Origin: Ignavibacteria bacterium
GTDB taxonomy: Bacteria > Bacteroidota > Ignavibacteria > Kapaibacteriales > Kapaibacteriaceae
NCBI GenBank assembly: GCA_947495975.1
Contig: CANMBE010000001.1
Location: 124,001 to 188,000 of the forward strand
Length of the DNA: 64,000 nucleotides
Direction of reading: 5' to 3'
Within the stretch, counting starts at the first letter, position 1; each line of letters starts with the position of its first letter. Below the pieces are notes generated by a model. That model was not told the origin of the DNA. It made no database searches and saw nothing but the letters and a program-made list of their open reading frames with translations. Made by a program: the position numbers and the translations under genes. This document shows positions 8,392 to 55,006 of the stretch, one piece after another.

Positions 8392-10236
8392 ATGAGAATT
8401 ATGATTCTCACCGCAGTATTTATTGCTGCAACATTCGCCATGCACGCGCAAGACTTTCCGGTTCGTATTGAACCCGTTTCAATGATCCCCTATCTGCAAG
8501 GACGAGTAATCGTTCCACCTTCACCACTGAAGTATCAAAACATTTTTGTTGGTGGTGTTGATACTGTAGAAACCAGCCTCGGACGTGCCGCTGCAAAACA
8601 ATGGCATGACTACATTGGTTACGCTGCTGACCCATCCGGTGGATCATTGGGCTGGGCCGTTGTTAATCACGAGCTGCTTGAAGCAAATGATAAGATTGGT
8701 GACGGTGGTGGGATGACGATGTTCAAGCTTGGCAAGAAATCAGATGGAACTGTTGAAGTTCTCAATCAAACTCTATCCGATGGTCGCTCGGGTAAGTTCT
8801 TCAATGTTGACTTTAAGAATACCGTAGGCGAAACGGGAATGAACTGTGGTGGAATTTCATGGAATGGCCGCGTTTGGACTGCCGAAGAATGGTACCAAAC
8901 AAGCAACAAAGACATCTATGCACTCGGTAAAGGATTTCGTGATACCGCAGAATTTGAAATTGGTAAGATGGTACCGTCTGGCTTTGCTGGCCTTGATGGA
9001 AAGAAGATCTCAAGATATCAGAATCTCAACTGGATGGTAGAAATCAATCCAAGAGATGCAAAAGCAGTTCGTAAGCAATACAATTGGGGTCGCCAAGGTT
9101 TTGAATCTGGCGTTGTAATGGCTGATCAAAAGACTGTATATCTCTTTGAAGACGGTGATGCAGGTAAGTCACTTCTCTCGAAGTTCATTGCAGACGTTCC
9201 AGGTGATTTCACAAAGGGTAACCTGTACTTCTACAAGCAGAACGCTGGACAGTTCACAGGAACATGGATCCAAGTTCCAAATAATCCTGCAACTGACTGG
9301 GATATCCTTGTAGCGCCACACGTTTGGGCTAAGGGAAAAGGTATTACAGGATTCACGCGCCTCGAATGGGGTGAGCTCAACAAAACAGACGGCAAGATCT
9401 ACATCACAGAAACAGGAAACGATAAGCCAGGAAGTCGTTATAAGAGCGCACTTGCTGAAGGTTGGACTCTTCCAAAGCACACGTATGATCGTGCCGCCGC
9501 CCAAGGCGTTGCCATTGATAGCTCTGCATACTGGGATTATTATGGCCGGGTTCTTGTATTTGACCCAACAGACAACTCTGTGAAGTCATACATCGAAGGC
9601 GGACCGTACATCACAGATGCTCAATCTGTTCCCTCGCAATATCCAGACAAGCACCTTTCTAATCCAGACGGTCTTGGCTTCTTGTACGTAAACGGCAAAA
9701 CGTTTATGGTTATCGAAGAAGACCTCAACGGTGTTAACTGGGGTCGCATGCCAAACACCGGTATGCGTGGCACAAACTGCGAAGCTTGGTTGCTTGATAT
9801 GTCCAAGCCTGCAACGATTGACAACCTCTATCGCCTCGCTATCTCACCGTACGGTTCCGAAATAACAGGCTTTGCGTCATTTGATGATGGTAACACTGTG
9901 CTCATAAACACTCAGCACCCAGATAACGTTGCGATCAGCGATGCAGCTTCTAAGAATTCGTTGACGTTTGCCTTATCCGGCCTAAAGCAACTCGTGAGCA
10001 GCATTGACAAGGATGATCAAGAACGCCCGCAAGGTACTGTTGGTGTATTTCCAAACCCAACATCATCGCAACTGAATTTCTCTGAAGCAACAGATGCTGC
10101 GATGTATGATGCAACTGGAGCTCGTGTTCGTGTTGTTCGCAGTGCAACTACGATAGACATCGCAGACCTCGCCGCGGGAGTTTACTACATCCGCACAGCA
10201 AATGGTTCTACACAACAAGTAGTGATACAGCGCTAA
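8392..10236 (+). CDS. PhoX-like alkaline phosphatase with T9SS sorting domain
   Basis: A 614-aa protein starting with a Sec-type signal peptide (LTAVFIAATFAMHAQ) that lacks a twin arginine. The body matches the PhoX family: WAVVNHELLEAND near 90, an NCGG motif at 151, EEDLNG near 442, and NCEAWLLD then ISPYGSEITG late in the domain. PhoX enzymes are Ca/Fe-dependent phosphomonoesterases that release phosphate outside the inner membrane. The last 70 residues are a T9SS type A domain (VFPNPTSSQ at its start, DLAAGVYYIR near its end), so the enzyme is probably placed on or beyond the outer membrane. The usual second Cys of the NC-GG...TCEE stretch is Ala here (TAEEW). A strong hairpin follows the gene. 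Confidence 0.85.
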   Translation: MRIMILTAVFIAATFAMHAQDFPVRIEPVSMIPYLQGRVIVPPSPLKYQNIFVGGVDTVETSLGRAAAKQWHDYIGYAADPSGGSLGWAVVNHELLEANDKIGDGGGMTMFKLGKKSDGTVEVLNQTLSDGRSGKFFNVDFKNTVGETGMNCGGISWNGRVWTAEEWYQTSNKDIYALGKGFRDTAEFEIGKMVPSGFAGLDGKKISRYQNLNWMVEINPRDAKAVRKQYNWGRQGFESGVVMADQKTVYLFEDGDAGKSLLSKFIADVPGDFTKGNLYFYKQNAGQFTGTWIQVPNNPATDWDILVAPHVWAKGKGITGFTRLEWGELNKTDGKIYITETGNDKPGSRYKSALAEGWTLPKHTYDRAAAQGVAIDSSAYWDYYGRVLVFDPTDNSVKSYIEGGPYITDAQSVPSQYPDKHLSNPDGLGFLYVNGKTFMVIEEDLNGVNWGRMPNTGMRGTNCEAWLLDMSKPATIDNLYRLAISPYGSEITGFASFDDGNTVLINTQHPDNVAISDAASKNSLTFALSGLKQLVSSIDKDDQERPQGTVGVFPNPTSSQLNFSEATDAAMYDATGARVRVVRSATTIDIADLAAGVYYIRTANGSTQQVVIQR

Positions 10237-32308: not shown

Positions 32309-33883
32309 ATGACTCTTCGCATGAGACTATTTGTCATTGCACTATGTGCTGCAACCTCACTTTCATACGCACAGACGCCTACGTGGTCTGCAGATGTTGC
32401 ATCAATCGTGTATTCAAAGTGCACACCGTGCCATCGTACTGGGGAAATCGCCCCTTTTACGTTTGAGTCATACGAGGATGTTGCCAATAGGGCCGGCTCT
32501 GTCAAATACGCTGTAGAGACGCGCACGATGCCACCATGGCCGCCTACGGCTGGCCATGGGACCTTTATGGGCAATAGATCACTATCTAACGTTGAGATCG
32601 CCAAGATTTCTGCATGGGTAGATGCCGGTGCGCCCTCAGGAGACCTAACACAAGCCCCAAAGCCCCCTACCTTCCCGAGTGGATCACAACTTGGCACACC
32701 GGATCTGGTACTTGAGATGCCCCAAACGTGGCAGGTGCAAGGAAACAACAAGGATGTCTATCGGTACTTTGTGCTCCCCACAAACATTCCAGCCGATACG
32801 TACATCTCTGCAATTGAATTCCGTCCAGGAAACACAAAAGTGGTGCACCATGTCCTGTACTACCTCGATACGAGTGGAACTGGGCGCGCAAGGGATTTAG
32901 CCGACCCGCTTCCTGGTTATGCAGGCTTTGGCGACCCAGGATTTACATCGGCCGCATCGTTTCTTGGTTGGGTACCAGGCGCCCAACAACGCTTCTTTCC
33001 TCCAGAAATTGGCGTGCGTTTCTATAAGGGCTCCGATCTCGTGATTCAAGTACACTACGCCCCTTCAGAAACTGATCAAACAGATCTCTCACATGTAAAC
33101 ATCTTCTTCCATAAGAATCCTGTTTCAAGGCTGGTGCAAGAGTTCTCGCTCAATCCAACAAACCTCATCGCGGGACAGTCGTTTGTCATCAATGCGAATA
33201 CATCAAGAACTTTCACAACAAAGTACACTGTCCCGATCGATATAAGCCTCATCGGCGTTGCACCACACATGCACTTGTTAGGCATAAACGCCCGCGCTTA
33301 TGCAGTAACATCTAAGGGCGATACGATCAACCTCATAAAGATCGATGATTGGGAGTTTCACTGGCAAGGGGGCTATGCATATCGCAACCCTGTGAAAATT
33401 CCGCGCGGCTCAACGTTGTTCTATACAGCCGAATACGATAACACAGTAAACAATCCCGAGAACCCAAACTCCCCGCCAAAAACCGTTCGCTGGGGAGAGA
33501 GTACCACGGATGAAATGTTGCTCTGCTATTTTCACTGGGTTGCGTACCTAGCGGGAGACGAGACGTTGAACATGGAGAACACACCAATAACATCTGTGGC
33601 TGATGGTGCGCACAACGAAATACGTCGAATAACTGTCTACCCGTCTCCAACGCGGAGTGATCGGTCGCAGGTTGCCATTGAGTCTGCCACGGCTAGGGCT
33701 GTGCGGCTTACGATTGTAGACATTGCTGGACGCACGGTGTATAACAGCGATCAACAGCACCAACTTGTGAGCGGCCTAAACATTTTACCGCTCAATACTC
33801 ACGGCCTTGCTTCTGGTCAATACTTCGTTCGTATTGAGAGCAAGGAAGAATCAACTACAGTTGCATTTAGCGTTGCTCGATGA
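32309..33883 (+). CDS. Copper type II monooxygenase-like protein fused to a cytochrome c domain, with T9SS domain
   Basis: A 524-aa protein with signal peptide (FVIALCAATSLSYAQ). A mono-heme cytochrome c domain comes first (CTPCH at 38-42, with TMPPWPP near 73 as the distal region). It is followed by a fold like peptidylglycine alpha-hydroxylating monooxygenase with all six copper ligands in order: His180, His181, His249 for one site and His320, His322, Met403 for the other. The last 80 residues are a T9SS sorting domain (VYPSPTRSD, GLASGQYFVR). It should act at the cell surface as an oxidase or hydroxylase of unknown substrate, with the heme feeding electrons. The ATG at 32309 has AGGA 8 nt upstream. 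Confidence 0.85.
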   Translation: MTLRMRLFVIALCAATSLSYAQTPTWSADVASIVYSKCTPCHRTGEIAPFTFESYEDVANRAGSVKYAVETRTMPPWPPTAGHGTFMGNRSLSNVEIAKISAWVDAGAPSGDLTQAPKPPTFPSGSQLGTPDLVLEMPQTWQVQGNNKDVYRYFVLPTNIPADTYISAIEFRPGNTKVVHHVLYYLDTSGTGRARDLADPLPGYAGFGDPGFTSAASFLGWVPGAQQRFFPPEIGVRFYKGSDLVIQVHYAPSETDQTDLSHVNIFFHKNPVSRLVQEFSLNPTNLIAGQSFVINANTSRTFTTKYTVPIDISLIGVAPHMHLLGINARAYAVTSKGDTINLIKIDDWEFHWQGGYAYRNPVKIPRGSTLFYTAEYDNTVNNPENPNSPPKTVRWGESTTDEMLLCYFHWVAYLAGDETLNMENTPITSVADGAHNEIRRITVYPSPTRSDRSQVAIESATARAVRLTIVDIAGRTVYNSDQQHQLVSGLNILPLNTHGLASGQYFVRIESKEESTTVAFSVAR

Positions 33884-34598: not shown

Positions 34599-37500
34599 TC
34601 AATGTTTTATAATCAACTGAGTTGATGACGCATAAAGAGTGTTGTTCGTTGTAACAGCATAGATACCACTTGCCAGATCAGCAACATTGATTGTTGCGCA
34701 GTCTGTCACAAATGCTACGCGCACCAAACGACCGTTTGCATCATGTATTGATATCTCTGTCCTATGCCCCTCTGCCTTAGTGCCTGAGCCCCTCTTTCCC
34801 ATGCAGACCGTTACAATATCACTGACAGGATTAGGCTCCACGTGGAGTGTGGTGGTAGCCGAAGGTGCTACGTCGTCTAGACTTGCAAGAAGCCCAGTTA
34901 CAAAAGACTGTCGGGCAGAGAACACACCCATAGCATCAGAATTCTCAGAGCGTGCGCGCCAAAAATAACGCCGGTTGTTTTCGAGACCTCGCACAAGGAT
35001 ACTTGTATCCACAATGCCACTCTGCTTTGAAATGATTGGATTGAAGGCTGCGCTTGTAGACAGCTCAATACCATACGTTTGCGCTTCTGGTACACGTTGC
35101 CACGTAAGGATAGCCTGTAGGATTCCGGTTGCGCTTGCAAGTGGCAACAGAAGTTTTGGAGAACGCACTGCGGTGTAAAAGGACCATGTATCAGAGGGAG
35201 TGCCACCACCGCCACCACTAAATGCTTCAACGTTCCATGAATAACGCACCGGACCTTGACGAAGCTCCGAGACTCGAAATGACTCTGTACGAATTCCTGT
35301 GAATGTTTGCTTGGTTGCAAGATCGTCAGTTTCCCAAAGCGTCAACGAATAGCTCATGGCGCTTACTACTGGCTCCCACGTCAAAACAGTGTCAATCAAT
35401 ATCCCCTTACGGCCATCAACAGGCGAAACGAGTAGCGGAATACGAGGCCGTGGAGGTAGAGTTACTATGCCACCAGAAATTACTCCTCGCCCATGTGTAG
35501 CAACAACAATGTCTCCTCTTGAACGGCGGTCAAACAACATATCACATGGAACATTTCCAATGAGCTCTGTTGCTGTTTGTGTCCACACAGTAGACATACC
35601 ATTTGTGTTTGGTGTGAAGTACAGTCCAGTAGATGTTGCCACAATGAGCACAGATGGATTCGATGCGCCATAGTTGAGCGACTCAATCCAATGAACTGCA
35701 GGACCACTTCCTTCACCAGAAACTTGGTCCTCTAGATTCCCCGAAATCGCAACCCACGATGTGCCTTTGTCATACGATTCCCACACACTCACAACGCCAT
35801 AGTTAGAGAAACAACACAACACGTGATTTGCGTTGCCTTTGTCAACGGTAATGTTGTTTACATACGCACCACGAGTCATAGATGGCGAGGTGATTTCAAT
35901 TGGTGTTGGCAAAGCGCTCAATGCATCATCGATACGAAAGATCCTACCACTTGTGGTTCCGTAATAGACAACGTGTTGAAGTCCAGCGCTTGGGTTTCCT
36001 GGAGAACACAATGCAGAGATTACCTCACTCTTCAGACGTGTAGTTGGTAGGCTATCCCAATTAACTGTAGTGGAATCATTTTTACCTGCAGGAATGTCTC
36101 GTAGATCTCGGTTTCTCCAAAGTATTGGTCCTGCGGCCAAGTAACACACTTGCTCTTCATTTGGGTGTAGAATGTATGGATTGATAAAGAGGTAGTTATT
36201 TCCTGCGCCAGCAGGATCAATTCTAGAACGGTCAACTTCATTGCCAGCAGCATCTCTTCTGATGCGAAACATTCTGCCTTGTTGTGACGAGTAATATTCT
36301 GTTCTACCACTGTCTGCAAAGTAGCAGTAGGCGCCATCTCCGCCTCCAAGTCTGCGCCAAAAAGCAGTAAATGATGTGCTATCGGTTGCCCACGTTGCGT
36401 TGTCTTGCATTCCGCCTAGTATTCTGTCTGCACCTGTGGTGAGATCTGCTGCTACTGTATAAAACTGCGTTGTGAGATAACCGCGGTTGAGATCTGTCCA
36501 CGTTACTTCAGTGGCACGAACATCTTCTGTACGCTGAATGCCACCGTCGTTCATACTTACAAGTACATTGGGCTTTGTGGGATGAAAGACAACATCATGC
36601 TGGTCAGGATGATGATTTGGATACAAAGAATACCCATCCCAAAATGGGTCTGGCTTCCAATACCCACCAATCCATGCGTTGGTATTCGTTGTTGAGAATC
36701 CATCTGTTGATCGGTAGAGGTTTGTTCCGCCAATCACTACTAGATTAGAATCGAATGGTGAAACACGAAGGAGAAGATCGTAGCCGCCTTGAGAATAGAA
36801 GTCTCCGCGTTTTTCATCTGTTAACGGAATATTTGCTGTACGGTCATCCCATTGTCCACCAACACCTGTGCCATCGCCACTCACATATGTGTACTTGAAA
36901 AGGCTGTGCCATTCGTAACGAAGTTCGCCTCGGTATAACGTTGAACCTTTAGCTCCAACACCAGGTGTCTCGGCCAGCATAAAAATTTGGTCAGGATGTT
37001 GTGGTACGGAAGCAAGTATAATTCGACCTGTTTGATTGTCTATTCCAGCGGGCGTGATCTTGGTCCACTTCACTCCATCTGTTGAACGATACACACCCCA
37101 TCGCGATGAAATGCTACCAAGACTACCGGTAAAAGCACTGAAGGCTGAATACATCGTGCCGTTGGGTGTGATAACGATATCACTGAATAGTGCATTGCTT
37201 CCCGCTACGCTCGTCCACGTTGTACCACCATTTGTGGAGCGGTATAAGCCCGACCTTGATGTTGCAGCATACACCTCGTCACTATCACGCAGTGGATGAG
37301 TTACGATGCGCCACGTGTAGGCGAACTGATTTGTTGCAGGCGTAACAATGCTTGCTGTGGAGGGCAATACAGACCATGAATTTCCGTTATCGATTGACTT
37401 CCAAATGCCGTTGCCGGATATCTGCGCGGAGTTGCCATACACTTCTCCTGTTCCATAATACCATGTGTTGCCGCGCCCCGTGCGTCTGTCCTGCGCAAGA

Positions 37501-47754: not shown

Positions 47755-49083
47755 CTATTTTGCGATAATGATGATTTCAGTTCTGCGGTTCAACCACCTA
47801 CCAAACTCAGTTGTATTGTCCGCAATTGGACGAGCAGGTCCATGGCCCAATGTTTGCAGTCTGCGCTGGTCAATACCATGCTGCACAATGTAGGCTTTTA
47901 CTGTCTCCGCCCGTTTCAATGAGAGCACTTTGTTCGTGCGCACTGAACCTGTGTTGTCCGTATGGCCTTCAATACGAACTTGAACAGCCGGCCTACTTTT
48001 CATGAACTCCATCAAAATGTCTAGCTCTTCTACTTTTGGGGGCAGCGTTGCGCTTCCTATTGGAAAGAGGAGGTTTTCAATGATGAATTTTCTTCCAATT
48101 TCTACGATTGGTATGATCTGCTTAACGAGCTCGCGTTTGTTCTCGTCAAGTATAGAAACGCTGATCGAATCGCGAAGCATCTTGGAATCGCTGCGATACA
48201 TCACAGCATAAAGATTGGTCAATTGCATCGAATATTGATCAAGGATTCGTGAGAAGGGTTGTTCAATATCAAACACTGCACCACGTGTTGACTCAGAAAT
48301 CAGTTTATACTCATGCAGTTGTGGCGGCACAATTGAAAAGAGTCTCACCTTATTGTCTCTGAGCAACGGAATAATTGTCTCCGTTGTCATGTAGGTTCTG
48401 CCATTCCCCTTCTCACCAAATTGATGATAAGGGGCATCTGTGATTATCACAGCCACACGGTTCGCAGATGGCATCCACTTTGCTCGAGTTACGTCCTTGA
48501 TCGCTTCTAGAGCATTTTCTTTTTCATCAAAGCCACCACTTGCGTACACCTTTGCAAGCCACGAGAGAAACTCTTTCACATCAGATGTTGGCTGATACGA
48601 ACGCTCAACAAAGTCACTAAAGAGAACGAGGCCTAGTCTGTATTCTATTCCTCGTGTACGCAGCGCATCTACAAAGCCTTCAATGTTGTCCTTCACACCA
48701 TTGATGTGAGATTGCATCGTACCTGTAATGTCCACAATGAACATAAAATCAACCGGAATGCGCTCGCTAATCGTAATCTTTTCAACGCCTATCACGGTCT
48801 TCGTCACTCCATTTTCAACTACTGTAAGAGTGCTTGGGTCCAGGCTTTCCATTGCGCGGGCACTATCGTCGAGGACTTCAACGATGAGTTTCACTAGCGG
48901 GAATTTTGTGATGTCAACATTCTGAATCGTCATCTGCACACCACTGAGCGATGACCGAATGAGCGCATCTTCAGCAACACGCTTTACTTTGTCCAACGAG
49001 TCCTGCTGTGCACTACACAATGAAACTGCCATCACGCTGAGCGTGATCGTTAAAAGCAGGAAATACAGAGTACGGTATATCAT
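47755..49083 (-). CDS. VWA domain protein with OmpA-type peptidoglycan-binding domain
   Basis: The product is 442 aa from the ATG at 49083 (signal peptide TLYFLLLTITLSVMAVSLCSAQ). A von Willebrand A domain occupies about 100-270, starting DFMFIVDITGTMQS, a metal-site variant with Thr in place of the usual Ser residues. The last 110 residues are an OmpA domain (LLFPIGSATLPP, VRIEGHTDNTGS, LSLKRAETVKAYI, GHGPARPIADN), which binds peptidoglycan. It should be a periplasmic protein tethered to the wall and able to hold a partner through the VWA domain. It closes the envelope run that begins at 54.9 kb, after a terminator-like hairpin. Confidence 0.85.
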   Translation of the reverse strand: MIYRTLYFLLLTITLSVMAVSLCSAQQDSLDKVKRVAEDALIRSSLSGVQMTIQNVDITKFPLVKLIVEVLDDSARAMESLDPSTLTVVENGVTKTVIGVEKITISERIPVDFMFIVDITGTMQSHINGVKDNIEGFVDALRTRGIEYRLGLVLFSDFVERSYQPTSDVKEFLSWLAKVYASGGFDEKENALEAIKDVTRAKWMPSANRVAVIITDAPYHQFGEKGNGRTYMTTETIIPLLRDNKVRLFSIVPPQLHEYKLISESTRGAVFDIEQPFSRILDQYSMQLTNLYAVMYRSDSKMLRDSISVSILDENKRELVKQIIPIVEIGRKFIIENLLFPIGSATLPPKVEELDILMEFMKSRPAVQVRIEGHTDNTGSVRTNKVLSLKRAETVKAYIVQHGIDQRRLQTLGHGPARPIADNTTEFGRWLNRRTEIIIIAK

Positions 49084-49096
49084 TGCTGAAAACGAC

Positions 49097-49128
49097 AAAG
49101 CCCCTTCAATCAACATGAAAGGGGCTTT
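49097..49128. terminator. Hairpin terminator made of two inverted AAGGGGCT copies
   Basis: AAAGCCCCTT and AAGGGGCTTT form a 10-bp stem around a 12-nt loop, with a short T run on the plus side. It lies between the stop of the upstream outer membrane gene (49148) and the start of the VWA-OmpA gene (49083), so it may partly terminate the minus-strand run. Each arm contains one copy of the dispersed octamer. Confidence 0.75.
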
Positions 49129-49147
49129 TAGTGGTCATGATGTTTCG

Positions 49148-50536
49148 TTAAAAATTGAGTCGTAGAACCGGGGAGAACATAAAGAAGTTCTTAATCTCAA
49201 ACGGTCGTGCGTCGCGCAGTGGAGTTGAGTATCTACCTTCGAGGTAAAGCCAATCGCCAAGGATAGGCACGTAAGCACGTGCTAAGAGCATTTGGTTTGA
49301 ATATTGAAGACTAATACCAAATGGGAATGAAGCTTGGCTACGATACTCAACCTTTGCGTAGATCCAATCGAGGGCTTCATTTGGCTTCCAGGTCATGAGG
49401 CCAGTTACGCCAGCGCGCCCAAGGTACACAGCTGTTGTGTCATTGAAAACAGCAACTTCCTGCACTTCGGCGTAACTAACACCGAGGTCAAAACGGAAGA
49501 AATTCTCCGGTACTTTTCGATCCAACCAAAGGTTGTAGAAAAGTGTTGCCTGACCCGTAGAGCGAATGATATTCGTAGTGGCGTTTGGATTAACATTAAA
49601 AGACGGTGCTGTTATTCGACGCGTTTCATCATTGAAAAGGTAATACGTTGTTGTATCAATGGTATTCTCTGGCGAGATGCCTTGTAGTGGCAGTTCAACG
49701 TTGAGGGCAAGTCCAAACTGTGGGTGGAATGGCAAGTAGAAGTCTAATCCGCCAACGATTTTACTTCCAGCTGAACCATTGAGTTTGCGACCAGGAATAA
49801 AATCGAGCAGTCTGCTCTGACCATCAAGACTACTTGTTAGACGATAGCCAAAACCTAAACGCACATTCAATAAATATGGAATCGGCTTGCGTGTATCAGG
49901 ATCAGAGTTTTCATAGAGTGGCCGTTGTAAGAATACACGTCCCTCACCTGAACTCCAGAACGTGTAGCCAACTTGGTCAGTACCTATTGACGACTTTAGC
50001 CAAAATCCAGAGTTGCCAATTTTCAGCGATTGTTCGAAGGCCGATAACGTGAACGAGTGCGTCACATTCGTCGGCTCTATATAGCTGATGATTTCGGCGA
50101 TCTGTGGAGCAGATGGTGGAGTTGACGGAGGGATCTCGTTGAAGCAGTATGGCCGTTTTCCATCTGCCAAGCGAGCTGCTAAACGCTTCATGTTTGAAGA
50201 GATCTCAGAAGCAACCATTCTTTCTGAGCCACATTCAATAAGAATGAGTTCGAAGTCTTGACCTGCTTCACCCTCTTTAACAGGAGCGGCTGTAATCACG
50301 ATTGATTTATCGTCGAGATTGCTTTTTGGATAACCCATAAGAGCAAACGATTGTTTGATCTGCACTTGAAGATCTGGTTCACATATTCTCCACCGTGGAA
50401 AATATTGAAGAATCTCTGGGTCAATGGTCTTAAGTGCCGCTAATGCCGTGTCGGCAAACGTCTGTGCCCTTACTGGTGTGGCAACACAAGCGAGAGCTAC
50501 AATGGCACAGAAGGCTAAACGGTACATGATCTGCAT
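49148..50536 (-). CDS. Outer membrane protein, tandem paralogue 2
   Basis: A 462-aa exported protein (signal peptide FCAIVALACVATPVRAQ). The first 140 mature residues are soluble-looking and helical, with several Cys (RICEPDLQV, LIECGSERM, KRPYCFNEI). From about residue 165 the sequence alternates as in a beta-barrel, ending SPVLRLNF with a C-terminal Phe for barrel insertion. The C-terminal 60 residues resemble those of the protein encoded next upstream, so the two look like paralogues. AAGGA 9 nt upstream supports the ATG at 50536. I recognise no named family. Confidence 0.7.
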   Translation of the reverse strand: MQIMYRLAFCAIVALACVATPVRAQTFADTALAALKTIDPEILQYFPRWRICEPDLQVQIKQSFALMGYPKSNLDDKSIVITAAPVKEGEAGQDFELILIECGSERMVASEISSNMKRLAARLADGKRPYCFNEIPPSTPPSAPQIAEIISYIEPTNVTHSFTLSAFEQSLKIGNSGFWLKSSIGTDQVGYTFWSSGEGRVFLQRPLYENSDPDTRKPIPYLLNVRLGFGYRLTSSLDGQSRLLDFIPGRKLNGSAGSKIVGGLDFYLPFHPQFGLALNVELPLQGISPENTIDTTTYYLFNDETRRITAPSFNVNPNATTNIIRSTGQATLFYNLWLDRKVPENFFRFDLGVSYAEVQEVAVFNDTTAVYLGRAGVTGLMTWKPNEALDWIYAKVEYRSQASFPFGISLQYSNQMLLARAYVPILGDWLYLEGRYSTPLRDARPFEIKNFFMFSPVLRLNF

Positions 50537-50564
50537 AATTCGAGTTCCTTCGTTGCGCTTTAGG

Positions 50565-52214
50565 TCAGAAGTTGAAAATGAAATTCACTGCAGGCATTAC
50601 GATGGCGCTGCTCTCCCAAATTCTTGGGTCCCGGAATACCGGTGCAAATACCTTCGCATCGAAGCGTACGGCAAATTGATCCATGATAGGAACTTGGAGC
50701 CACGCTTTACCAAGGATGGTCTGGTCGAAATATGACAGCGTAAAGCCAATTGGGGTTGACCACGCGGTTGTCATAAAATCAACGGCACCAGATAAGCCGC
50801 CAATCGTTTCATTATCAACCTTGCTGTACACGACTGCTGTGTCTTGGTCTAGTCCACGAATTGATGACCATGACTCCATGTTATACACGGTTCCACCCAG
50901 GCGCAAGCGGAACATGTATGCCTCATCAATGCGGATTGCAAACGTGTATTGCATTATCGCATGGAATCGGACAAGGTAATCTTCATAACGGCTTGATGCT
51001 TCATTGTACACCATGTGGTCTGACATCTTCGCGTCAGAAAACACATAGCTTGCTCCGAAGTGAAACACGCCCGATTCAGAGATCACGCGGATTGGGAAAT
51101 CGAATGCCCCATTAATACCAAGACCACCTGTGGTCATGGTCTGCGCAGAGCCCAAATCTTTGGAGATACTGGCCCACCCATTGGTAGGCATAACAACACC
51201 AAGATGTGCGGCACCCCAAACAGCATTCAGCGTTAGACGATTAGACCAAATAGACGGATAGTTCAGATCTTCGAGACCATATTTCAGTTCCAGACCATAC
51301 TTTGGCAAGTAGGTATTCGTGGATATGGCGGAGTCTACATCCGAGTCATTCAACGTTGGGCGTTCAAAGCGACGGTACGAAATACCATCAAGTGCACTAA
51401 GAATGATCTCGTTGTTGTTTTGGTAGTCTTTTGGAAGACCTTCTGTAATGCGCATAAACAACGGTGAAGAATCTTCGCTTATTCCCGTTGTTGCACCGTA
51501 ACGCTTCTTCACAAAACGAATACCTTCCTCGCCAATACCCTGTGCTTCTGGAGTTACATTCTCCATGTTGCCTTGCATCACCTGATTTGAAACATATTGA
51601 TACAGCGTGTTTGTGCTGGTCTCTAGGATTTCCCGACCCTTCTTCGCTACGCCGTTTACCAATATCTGCTCATCGAGGTTTTTTGCTTCAAGTTCACTGG
51701 CTAGAAATTGACCACTTGGTGGATCGAGGTCCTGTCGCAGCCCGTAGAAGCTTTCTGTGTTCTTCTGAACAAGGAGTGCAATTACCTTGAACGATTCACC
51801 CGGTTGGTAACGAGTTGTTACGACAAAAGCTTTTTTGAACTGTGCTTTTTCCCATGCAATGCGTTGGGAATAATAACGCTCATACGCTTTGCAACCTGGC
51901 GATCTCATCCACTTCTGATACTCTTTCTCGTCGCTGCCTTCACCGCCAGAAAGCACGTATCCCTCGATATCGTCCTTCACGTTGCACAGTTTGGCTTCTT
52001 CGGGAATGACTGGTTCTGGAGGACCAAGAAGCATGTTGAACTTCGTGACCGTTCCATCCTCCTCATTCACACGAAAGACGGAGATCATTCCGTAACGCCA
52101 GTTCTTGTATTTATTAAGAATGGTAGATACCTGCGAATTTTGTTGCGCAGATACCGCCACTACTGCAATTGTCCCCAGCAGTATTGCGCAGAGAATTTTC
52201 CTCGTGGAAGTCAT
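50565..52214 (-). CDS. Outer membrane protein, tandem paralogue 1
   Basis: The product is 549 aa from the ATG at 52214, chosen because AAGGA lies 5 nt upstream and the signal peptide then begins directly (KILCAILLGTIAVVAVSAQ); earlier in-frame starts reach to 52250. The first 280 residues are polar and mixed helix and strand (KYKNWRYGMISVFRVNEED, KKAFVVTTRYQPGESFKVIALLV). The remainder looks like a beta-barrel (LTLNAVWGAAHLGVVMP, IGGLSGAVDFMTTAW) and ends AVNFIFNF. It shares its C-terminal pattern with the next gene. It lies between the GldM-like gene and its paralogue. Confidence 0.7.
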   Translation of the reverse strand: MTSTRKILCAILLGTIAVVAVSAQQNSQVSTILNKYKNWRYGMISVFRVNEEDGTVTKFNMLLGPPEPVIPEEAKLCNVKDDIEGYVLSGGEGSDEKEYQKWMRSPGCKAYERYYSQRIAWEKAQFKKAFVVTTRYQPGESFKVIALLVQKNTESFYGLRQDLDPPSGQFLASELEAKNLDEQILVNGVAKKGREILETSTNTLYQYVSNQVMQGNMENVTPEAQGIGEEGIRFVKKRYGATTGISEDSSPLFMRITEGLPKDYQNNNEIILSALDGISYRRFERPTLNDSDVDSAISTNTYLPKYGLELKYGLEDLNYPSIWSNRLTLNAVWGAAHLGVVMPTNGWASISKDLGSAQTMTTGGLGINGAFDFPIRVISESGVFHFGASYVFSDAKMSDHMVYNEASSRYEDYLVRFHAIMQYTFAIRIDEAYMFRLRLGGTVYNMESWSSIRGLDQDTAVVYSKVDNETIGGLSGAVDFMTTAWSTPIGFTLSYFDQTILGKAWLQVPIMDQFAVRFDAKVFAPVFRDPRIWESSAIVMPAVNFIFNF

Positions 52215-52253
52215 GGTGTTCCTTGGCATGCTTCGAATCTTCATGTTCAAATA

Positions 52254-54488
52254 TTAGTTCGTCACTGAAACAGATTGTGACTTGGCCCGAGGTTTAGAAG
52301 TTGCACCTTGTGATCGCGCTGTTGCCGAGATCGACAACGTTACGTTTCCTTTCACTTGGTTCTTTGTGAGCGGAATCTTTCCGCCTTGCAGCTTTAGCGT
52401 CACTTCATATTCATTGCCGGTAATCTTGCGAGCTTTTCCAACCACAACAACCTTGTAGGTTGTGTTTGTCTTTAGATCTCTCACATTGGAAGCGCTTACT
52501 TGTACTTCTACGTCACCAACTTCTGCACGCTCAGTATCGGAGATCTGTGGAGGCTTCACAATGATACCCTTAACCTTGAATTCAGGGTCACTGTTATTCA
52601 TAATTGGGTCAACTTTGATGTCTGCCGTAAGCACCATTGGCTTCTTAAGACCAACGTCTCCACTGCCACTATAGATTTCAACAACGTCGCCCGATTGTGG
52701 GTCTTTCCAAGAGATCGTTAGCTCAACTTTATCAGAACCCGCTGGAATCTTCACGTTATCAGACTGACCAATAGCAAGCTTGCGAATTGGAGGTGTTTGT
52801 GTACCAGCACCAAGATTGAAATTCATGACGAACTCATCCTGCTTGATCGTACTTCCCGATGAAGGAATAGCAACAAGTTCTAGCGCGTCGCCCCATGATG
52901 CCTCAATGGCACTCTTTATTTCATCAGGATTGGTCAGATTTGAAGGATACACGTACACCGAGCATTGCACAATCTCAGACTTCTTACCATTGGCATTTTG
53001 AAGTACGTCAAAGATGTACGGTTCATCTCGAGCAGACAGATTTCCTGCAACCGGAATTTCGAGATTGCGATTTACCCATTGTACACCGGCGCCACCTGAT
53101 GCAGATGCTGATGCGCCAGAGCCATTCGTAATGTTTGCAGTGCCTGGCTTCTTCGCGATTTCCGTTGTGCCTGTAGCAGGCGAAACCTGGAACGGAAGTG
53201 AAATCTTCGCAAGCTTGTCAAAGACACGGACAACAGTCTTGAGATCCGCAATCTTTGGTTCAGCCGTAGGAATATTCGGTTTAACAACACGGACCGTGAA
53301 GCCCATACTTGCCTGATTCTGCATAAGCTCGCCCGATTGGTTAGGGCTAAGAATCATACTGATGTATGCATACAGCTTTGCCTGACGAGCAAGATCTGGA
53401 TCAGAGTTTTGAAGTTCAATCACTCTCTTGTCAACTTCGTCGCGATATAGTCGACCAGAAATTTGACTTGATTCAAACTTCGTTGTGAGCTCTCTCACTG
53501 GTACGTCGCTCATCGTGCGGTCAAGTTCTTTGATCACACTTCTAAGATCTTTCACTGTGAGTTGCACTGTACCAATGTTGATTTTCTCTTCATCATCGGC
53601 TTGGACGTTTGTTGAATTCACGTCGCGCCGGATACCGAGGATCTTATTCGTACGAGAGAAGAAGTGCAGCTTGTATATGCCGGTACGTCCTGATGGCTTA
53701 AACCGCGCCATAAAGGAGCGTACTTTGAGCGAAACAGGAAACTTGTTTGTTCCAGGAGCTAGAGTTGTGTCGTGGTCATATCCATATTGTTGCTTTCCAT
53801 CCATACCATTCCAGTATGACGTAAAGTCACCAACTGGTGCCTCCAGATTATAGACTGGGGCTGCGGTTTGGAACCATCGAATGGTTTCTGGAAGATCAAG
53901 AGGGATGTTTGAATTTTTTAGCCAGTTTTGATCGAACGTAGCTAGCTGATAGCCAAGCATCGTCCAACCATGTGACTCTGTATTAACCCCTGTTCCTTTT
54001 TCAAGAATGTCACCAATTTCACCGTCTGTCGGGAAATCTGTGATGTTCTTGTTGTCATCTGACGAGTGCCATATCTGGTAATAGATTTCTCGGACGTTAG
54101 AAGCAAGCACAAAATCGCGAAGACGATTTTCCTTCTGCCCCTTGTCTAGCTTCTCGTCCTTGAGAACCTTACTCAGGTCATTCATTACGTCTGTAACGCC
54201 TACCTCTACGAGGTATTCGCGCTCTTCCTTGATAAGATTCATGCCCGGCTGGTTAGCCCAAGCTGCATCCTTCAGTACAATCTGATCCTGCGGTCGGGTA
54301 CTAAGACCCTCTACACCAGTACCGGTTTGGAGTTGCGCCAAGATCGATTGAACGATCTTCATCGACTCCTTTTGTTTCGCAATAAGATGCTCTTCCGCTT
54401 CATCTCTCTCCACAATAATGATGAGGAGTTCGAGAATTACAGCTAGATACAATACGAAATAGACTTTTCCAGCTCCGCCCTTGGACAT
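52254..54488 (-). CDS. Single-TM periplasmic protein with Ig-like domains, GldM-like layout
   Basis: A 744-aa protein with a strong GGAGG site 6 nt before the ATG. One N-terminal helix (VYFVLYLAVILELLIIIVE at 9-27) carries a Glu inside the membrane. A helical region follows (EEHLIAKQKESMKIVQSILAQLQ and on to about 150), and then a long beta-rich region to the end made of several immunoglobulin-like units (VQLTVKDLRSV, RNLEIPVAGNLSA, ADIKVDPIMNNSD, GNVTLSISATARS). GldM/PorM of the T9SS motor has the same order: one helix and stacked periplasmic domains of about 520 aa. Sequence identity with GldM cannot be shown by eye, so the assignment is a hypothesis. Confidence 0.55.
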   Translation of the reverse strand: MSKGGAGKVYFVLYLAVILELLIIIVERDEAEEHLIAKQKESMKIVQSILAQLQTGTGVEGLSTRPQDQIVLKDAAWANQPGMNLIKEEREYLVEVGVTDVMNDLSKVLKDEKLDKGQKENRLRDFVLASNVREIYYQIWHSSDDNKNITDFPTDGEIGDILEKGTGVNTESHGWTMLGYQLATFDQNWLKNSNIPLDLPETIRWFQTAAPVYNLEAPVGDFTSYWNGMDGKQQYGYDHDTTLAPGTNKFPVSLKVRSFMARFKPSGRTGIYKLHFFSRTNKILGIRRDVNSTNVQADDEEKINIGTVQLTVKDLRSVIKELDRTMSDVPVRELTTKFESSQISGRLYRDEVDKRVIELQNSDPDLARQAKLYAYISMILSPNQSGELMQNQASMGFTVRVVKPNIPTAEPKIADLKTVVRVFDKLAKISLPFQVSPATGTTEIAKKPGTANITNGSGASASASGGAGVQWVNRNLEIPVAGNLSARDEPYIFDVLQNANGKKSEIVQCSVYVYPSNLTNPDEIKSAIEASWGDALELVAIPSSGSTIKQDEFVMNFNLGAGTQTPPIRKLAIGQSDNVKIPAGSDKVELTISWKDPQSGDVVEIYSGSGDVGLKKPMVLTADIKVDPIMNNSDPEFKVKGIIVKPPQISDTERAEVGDVEVQVSASNVRDLKTNTTYKVVVVGKARKITGNEYEVTLKLQGGKIPLTKNQVKGNVTLSISATARSQGATSKPRAKSQSVSVTN

Positions 54489-54550
54489 GGTGATCCTCCA
54501 GGTAGTGGGTTAAACAACAGGATCCCCTTCTGCCTCACATCTCCAACCGA

Positions 54551-54883
54551 TCACTTTACCTCAGTAGTTGGCGCAACAGCAGCTGTTTCCGTTGTTGGCG
54601 CAACTGCGGTTGACTTTACATCTTTGGCCTTCATAGAGCAGCAAGACGAAGAAGCGCTTGTCTTCTTTACCTTAACCGCAGTTGTTGAGCACGATGTGCT
54701 TTCTTCAGTTGAGCATTCCTTATCGGACATCTTTTTGGCTGCATTTGAAGTTGTGCTGCAGCAAGAAGAAGATTTTGCCTTCTTCACAGTTGCCTTTTCG
54801 TCACACTTCACACCACCAGCTATTGAGATAGCACACGAGGCTACTGCAACAAGTGCCATCATTGAGATCATTCGAATATTCAT
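54551..54883 (-). CDS. Small Cys-rich putative lipoprotein
   Basis: The product is 110 aa from the ATG at 54883, with GGAG about 6 nt upstream; an in-frame TTG at 54895 is less likely. The first 17 residues (MNIRMISMMALVAVASC) form a lipoprotein signal with lipobox VASC. The mature part is Lys-, Ser- and Thr-rich with seven more Cys: VKCDE, two SSSCCS pairs, KECST and TSCST. The end repeats APTTE twice (VAPTTETAAVAPTTE). Paired Cys suggest metal binding or disulfide cross-linking; the role is unknown. It is first in the run that continues with the GldM-like protein 62 bp downstream. Confidence 0.6.
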   Translation of the reverse strand: MNIRMISMMALVAVASCAISIAGGVKCDEKATVKKAKSSSCCSTTSNAAKKMSDKECSTEESTSCSTTAVKVKKTSASSSCCSMKAKDVKSTAVAPTTETAAVAPTTEVK

Positions 54884-55006
54884 GTCTGACTCCAAATCTC
54901 TTTGTTAAATTCACTGCCTTCGGTTACGTCTAAGGCATAAAATAGGCCCTAACTCCCTGTATTCCAAAGGAAATGCCGTTCCAATAAGCTGCCAAAGTAC
55001 AACTTT

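Follow-up and report, generated by a model that had tools for sequence, protein, structure and literature searches.

How can a type IX secretion system (T9SS) be operated when its motor appears to be missing? The class to which our organism belongs raises this question, because SprA is present in nearly every one of its genomes, yet no recognisable ring or motor genes were found in the genomes tested. According to current models, GldLM supplies the power for T9SS export by acting on a ring or track of GldK/N. The window analyzed here, a stretch of 64,000 nucleotides from an Ignavibacteria bacterium, contains a run of envelope genes that may contribute to an answer. ORF calling placed all five ORFs that had been proposed from the sequence alone on the minus strand at positions 47755-54883. 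Four of them, encoding proteins here termed M744, OM561, OM462 and VWA453, constitute a tight envelope operon with intergenic spacings of 3, 28 and 31 bp in that order. Across the operon, VWA and OmpA domains are the sole families recognised by Pfam and NCBIfam.

The window genome has a T9SS. It encodes the SprA translocon (917 bits, above the cut-off), a PorU-like C25 sortase (E 2e-63 to PorU models, with a score below the curated cut-off of 450 bits) and CTD-bearing cargo, with 66 matches to the sorting-tail model TIGR04183 above the cut-off. Sorting-tail matches are also situated inside the window at 10045-10227, 33635-33862 and 34605-34835 on ORFs of 553-1148 aa, and T9SS cargo is thus encoded within the window itself. 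In the class as a whole, SprA is found in 148 of 149 genomes. It has been noted that T9SSs "may also be present" in Ignavibacteriota and Chlorobiota (PMC11285876), and our literature search found no paper on the T9SS motor of Kapabacteria or Ignavibacteria. GldK, GldL, GldM, GldN and PorP were not detectable in the genomes searched: GldL (TIGR03513) was absent above the cut-off from 60 relatives, GldN (TIGR03523) and GldK (TIGR03525) from five Kapabacteria including the window genome and three sister-class genomes, PorP/SprF (PF11751) from the window genome and seven relatives (again five Kapabacteria and three sister-class genomes in all), and GldM (PF12081) gave no match in the window genome; these genome-wide absences are results of HMM scans, which very divergent versions could escape. 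Three Bacteroidia-type control genomes with canonical gldKLMN yielded strong scores for GldN, GldK and PorP/SprF, with about 40 matches to PF11751 across the three. The arrangement of a canonical gldKLMN locus, with gldK, gldL and gldN beside the gene for M744, was not found, and in the window genome the operon adjoins no recognised T9SS gene. The earlier suspicion of a T9SS-type motor is therefore backed by genomic context (SprA, PorU-like sortase, sorting tails and no recognisable GldKLMN) and not by homology of M744 to GldM.

The four-gene module is real, order-wide and more than a product of chance, since M744 was recovered in 96 of the 99 genomes of the same order and the sequence M744-OM561-OM462-VWA453 is intact in 61 of the 67 loci with long enough flanks, labelled mostly Kapabacteria or Ignavibacteria. 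The six remaining loci deviate only in that no OM462 or no VWA gene was detected within range. The gene-neighbourhood survey that the sequence-only reading had called for has thus revealed strongly conserved core neighbours. The same reading had reckoned that a structure unlike GldM, together with homologues scattered among varying neighbours, would speak against it; as the neighbours of M744 are strongly conserved, this combination does not occur. The operon does shrink from the proposed five genes to a kept core of four. The gene for the Cys-rich small secreted protein (54551-54883, minus strand; the 114-aa ORF spans 54551-54895 with an ATG at 54883), which features eight Cys and a possible lipobox VASC, has homologues confined to some loci of the family to which the window belongs, and it was rejected as a member of the conserved unit.

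M744 (744 aa; 52254-54488, minus strand) is a single-TM periplasmic shaft protein and a candidate for a GldM-like role. Nowhere is the operon more conserved than at the N-terminus of this protein. The first 35 residues (MSKGGAGKVYFVLYLAVILELLIIIVERDEAEEHL) hardly vary across the order, and in an alignment of 47 homologues nearly all positions of the membrane helix (residues 8-29, KVYFVLYLAVILELLIIIVERD; 54402-54467, minus strand) are invariant, among them Glu20, which lies midway along the predicted helix and is found in 47/47. The predicted structure (m2502cd45d060, mean pLDDT 82.8) features a long helix from residue 5 to 55 that includes E20, an alpha/beta region and then stacked Ig/Fn3-like beta-sandwich domains at about residues 392-744 (52257-53315, minus strand). 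Residues 409-744 of this model align to three-domain fibronectin fragments with Z about 9 (VIA-align). Both the single TM with a Glu in the membrane helix and, at the level of prediction, the stacked Ig-like domains had been read correctly from the sequence.

The plan of GldM is one TM plus the domains D1-D4. With its single N-terminal TM helix, multi-domain periplasmic shaft and beta domains, the model of M744 resembles this plan, in outline only. M744 matched none of the families in Pfam and NCBIfam at E values up to 1, and comparison with canonical GldM by hhalign gave E 0.06 over the full length and, for the TM region, E 0.17 alone and 0.026 pooled, which is below the permuted maximum. The M744 profile found no match among the sequences of solved structures. 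Foldseek and VIA searches with the model returned, among the matches listed, generic Ig/Fn3 arrays, mostly of the animal Ig/cadherin type, and none of the solved GldM/PorM chains (6ys8, 6ey4-6ey6). Since neither the family models nor the profile comparison with its permutation controls gave a positive result, M744 was rejected as a recognisable GldM. The earlier impression that the layout recalls GldM holds for the overall domain plan of the model and is not borne out by sequence or profile comparison. By plan, then, the module would work like GldLM, while its sequence does not place M744 in the GldM family.

Downstream of M744, the operon encodes OM561 (561 aa; 50565-52250, minus strand) and OM462 (462 aa; 49148-50536, minus strand), which had been described as outer-membrane paralogues. 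Their C-terminal barrels indeed match each other in a profile-profile comparison (E 3e-11). In the model of OM561 (m653e6016015e) the barrel comprises residues 265-561 behind a periplasmic alpha/beta domain, and its fold matches TbuX with Z 14.3 and FadL/TodX with Z 12-14. PorP/SprF barrels are of the FadL-like type, and the barrel sought as a likeness to them is thus present in the model. VWA453 (453 aa; 47755-49116, minus strand), a secreted protein, carries the VWA (Pfam E 1.6e-10) and OmpA (E 2e-18) domains that had been recognised in it. Asp387 and Arg402 of its OmpA domain are invariant in 17 homologues, and VWA453 is likely the peptidoglycan anchor of the module. Against the PorE model NF052230 it scores 63 bits, far from the cut-off of 600, over the OmpA part and the flank just before it. 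An OmpA/Pal-type domain, outer-membrane barrels and a protein with a single TM and a long periplasmic part are also what would be expected of an operon for outer-membrane stability or transport of the Tol-Pal/TonB type, in which M744 would be a TolR/ExbD/TolA-like arm and the VWA-OmpA protein a Pal-like anchor. We regard this as improbable, given that M744 has no Pfam or NCBIfam match and that the neighbour of M in sister orders is a GldL-like two-helix protein.

This neighbour came to light when the M744 profile, run over 296 genomes of the phylum, reached sister orders of the class. There, a two-helix GldL-like protein (174-355 aa) is encoded directly before a short M protein of 186-222 aa, and the TM helices of this short M and of M744 are homologous (hhalign E 6e-14). 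The short M gene is followed by one for a secreted protein of 360-400 aa and, in most loci, by a series of outer-membrane genes. Detectable relatedness to OM561 is confined to the last part of one sister-order outer-membrane family (E 2e-6). The idea that M744 is split in sister orders into short M and its 365-aa neighbour was dropped: the 365-aa protein yields E 0.14 to M744 and 0.03 to GldM, and the TM segment is therefore the only part of short M with a demonstrated counterpart in M744. In several of the sister-order operons, a gene for a DUF2254 membrane protein resides upstream of the GldL-like gene (locus L173, 6443-8035; locus L176, 6918-8531), and loci L177 and L178 feature the same type of gene as judged by size and TM pattern. 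This upstream gene of 530 aa was also considered as the N-terminal part of GldL1/GldL2, two of the GldL-like proteins treated below; it shows no similarity to them and contains a DUF2254 domain.

The sister-order two-helix proteins exhibit the motif 'YxGAAxLIIIVGLRG', as compared to 'YGxGAAVVIxGALFKI' in canonical GldL. Common to both are G-A-x, a basic residue (mostly Lys/Arg) 11 positions on and a Glu in helix 2 that is invariant in the sister-order set. In Flavobacterium, GldL E49 is an experimentally essential proton residue (PMC8986121). A pooled hhalign comparison of GldL-like proteins with canonical GldL reached a score of 21.6; the highest of 200 column-permuted controls scored 18.8, and a reversed control 12.7. 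The GldL3 subgroup, the copy closest to canonical GldL, alone gave E 2e-6, and in the tree a very long branch separates canonical GldL from the GldL-like sequences. From these comparisons, good evidence points to a shared plan of GldL-like proteins and canonical GldL, and homology of the two is weakly indicated.

A two-helix partner with a Glu in helix 2 therefore exists, and its gene is linked to that for M in sister orders and in family f7 of the window's order. These pairings also bear on the possibility that the operon encodes a static transenvelope scaffold which, devoid of any motor, sets the spacing of inner membrane, wall and outer membrane. A wall-binding domain and barrel proteins would indeed span the envelope; an ion-coupled motor is the better fit both for a TM segment of 30 residues that is almost completely invariant and has a Glu buried in it and for the gene pairing with GldL-like proteins bearing a conserved helix-2 Glu, and we give little credence to a mere scaffold.

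In the window's order, the GldL-like family occurs in 60/60 genomes, mostly in three copies and outside of the M744 operon. In denying a GldL-like two-helix partner, the sequence-only reading is hence correct locally and incorrect genome-wide, with three GldL-like genes residing elsewhere. GldL1, a protein of 343 aa in the window genome, is encoded after a dnaK-like gene and has no adjoining M gene, and it was discarded as half of an M pair. In its locus (L211, 8448-14353, contig C1 of the window genome), the dnaK-like gene flanks it on one side and a pair of AAA_16/BNR-type proteins, a single 1603-aa ORF in a relative (G014), on the other. GldL2 (455 aa) is encoded directly upstream of a PorU-like gene in four of the five genomes examined. 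In family f7, tree and neighbourhood agree that a gene of the GldL2 clade directly adjoins a second M744 copy on its upstream side. M744 is thereby linked to GldL2, and GldL2 to the T9SS, through the adjacency in family f7 and the PorU-like neighbour, respectively. The second M744 paralogue of family f7 with its own GldL2-type gene (loci L220, L221 and L228) is a candidate duplicated motor, and no recognised barrel genes are located alongside it.

Downstream of GldL3 (309 aa), a single-TM M-like protein of 493 aa (M493) is encoded in all five Kapabacteria genomes examined. In the window genome this pair is found on contig C3 (locus L213, 7813-10189) and looks like a separate GldLM-type motor. 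It gives rise to the main rival of our reading, namely that GldL3 and M493 form the real T9SS motor, with M744 as the axle of a second GldLM-like motor without a role in secretion, which might, for example, move surface adhesins or act as an envelope-tension or stress machine with the VWA-OmpA protein as its anchor. The proximity of GldL3 to canonical GldL, its own adjoining M-like gene, the relatedness of the M493 and M744 helices (E 1.7e-5) and the presence of three GldL-like paralogues, suggestive of more than one motor, all agree with this. What makes us consider it rather unlikely is that GldL2, whose clade includes the genes beside M744 paralogues, stands before the PorU-like gene in four of the five genomes, and that M493 would lack the outer-membrane parts, since neither a VWA-OmpA protein nor partners of the OM561/OM462 type are present in its immediate neighbourhood.

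We therefore favor, with a probability of roughly 55%, the view that the four-gene operon encodes the axle of a proton-driven GldLM-like motor, along with its outer-membrane components and its wall anchor, and that this motor energises the T9SS of Kapabacteria. For this motor we infer stoichiometry, proton flow, rotation, barrel contact and the T9SS as client machinery as follows. M744 would form a dimeric membrane axle with a periplasmic shaft of Ig-like domains, surrounded by a ring of GldL-like two-helix subunits whose gene lies at another locus; the most likely ring proteins are the 455-aa GldL2, with its gene before the PorU-like gene, or else the 343-aa GldL1. Ion flow past the helix-2 Glu of the GldL-like protein, and perhaps Glu20 of M744, would turn or flex the shaft, which would act on, that is drive or load, the two FadL-like outer-membrane barrel proteins. 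VWA453 would tie the unit to peptidoglycan, and barrels and VWA453 together would take the place of GldK/GldN/PorP.

If this is true, the missing T9SS power source is supplied for Kapabacteria and sister lineages, and a new branch of ion-driven 5:2 motors is added in which a Glu resides in the axle itself. As a replacement, the operon and the unlinked GldL-like genes would allow the question of which motor parts are indispensable to be tested independently. We propose only tentatively, as a possible rather than a probable generalization, that nothing in the motor and outer-membrane apparatus with which the class runs its T9SS translocon corresponds to GldK, GldM, GldN or PorP. Divergent GldL-type rings in three specialised paralogues would work there with the unrelated axles M744 and M493, and the part of the GldK/N ring or track would be played by paired barrels together with a VWA-OmpA anchor. 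The T9SS motor module would then have been replaced or have evolved twice.

Among known systems, GldL-GldM/PorL-PorM of Bacteroidia is close in plan. Both combine a single-TM axle, whose extended periplasmic region comprises several domains and terminates in beta domains, with a two-helix partner that has a helix-2 Glu and, 11 positions beyond the GA motif, a basic residue. M744 differs in that it is without detectable sequence homology to GldM, carries a membrane Glu in the axle itself and has no gldK/gldN beside it; the partner gene of the window genome is unlinked and present as three paralogues, of which GldL1 and GldL2 possess an extra N-terminal TM region. As with PorP/SprF, an outer-membrane barrel gene adjoins the gene for the motor axle and the barrel of OM561 is FadL-like, whereas a PF11751 match above the cut-off is lacking and a large N-terminal periplasmic domain and two tandem paralogues are present. 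VWA453 shares with PorE secretion and a C-terminal OmpA-like peptidoglycan-binding domain; it differs by a VWA domain in front, by a location apart from a PorP/PorK set and by matching NF052230 only in and just before the OmpA part (63 bits versus 600). Finally, although neither M744 nor the GldL-like proteins match any family of MotAB, ExbBD or TolQR, the proposed principle of an ion-driven ring around a single-TM axle is that of these 5:2 motors, with which GldLM has been grouped (PMC9389320).
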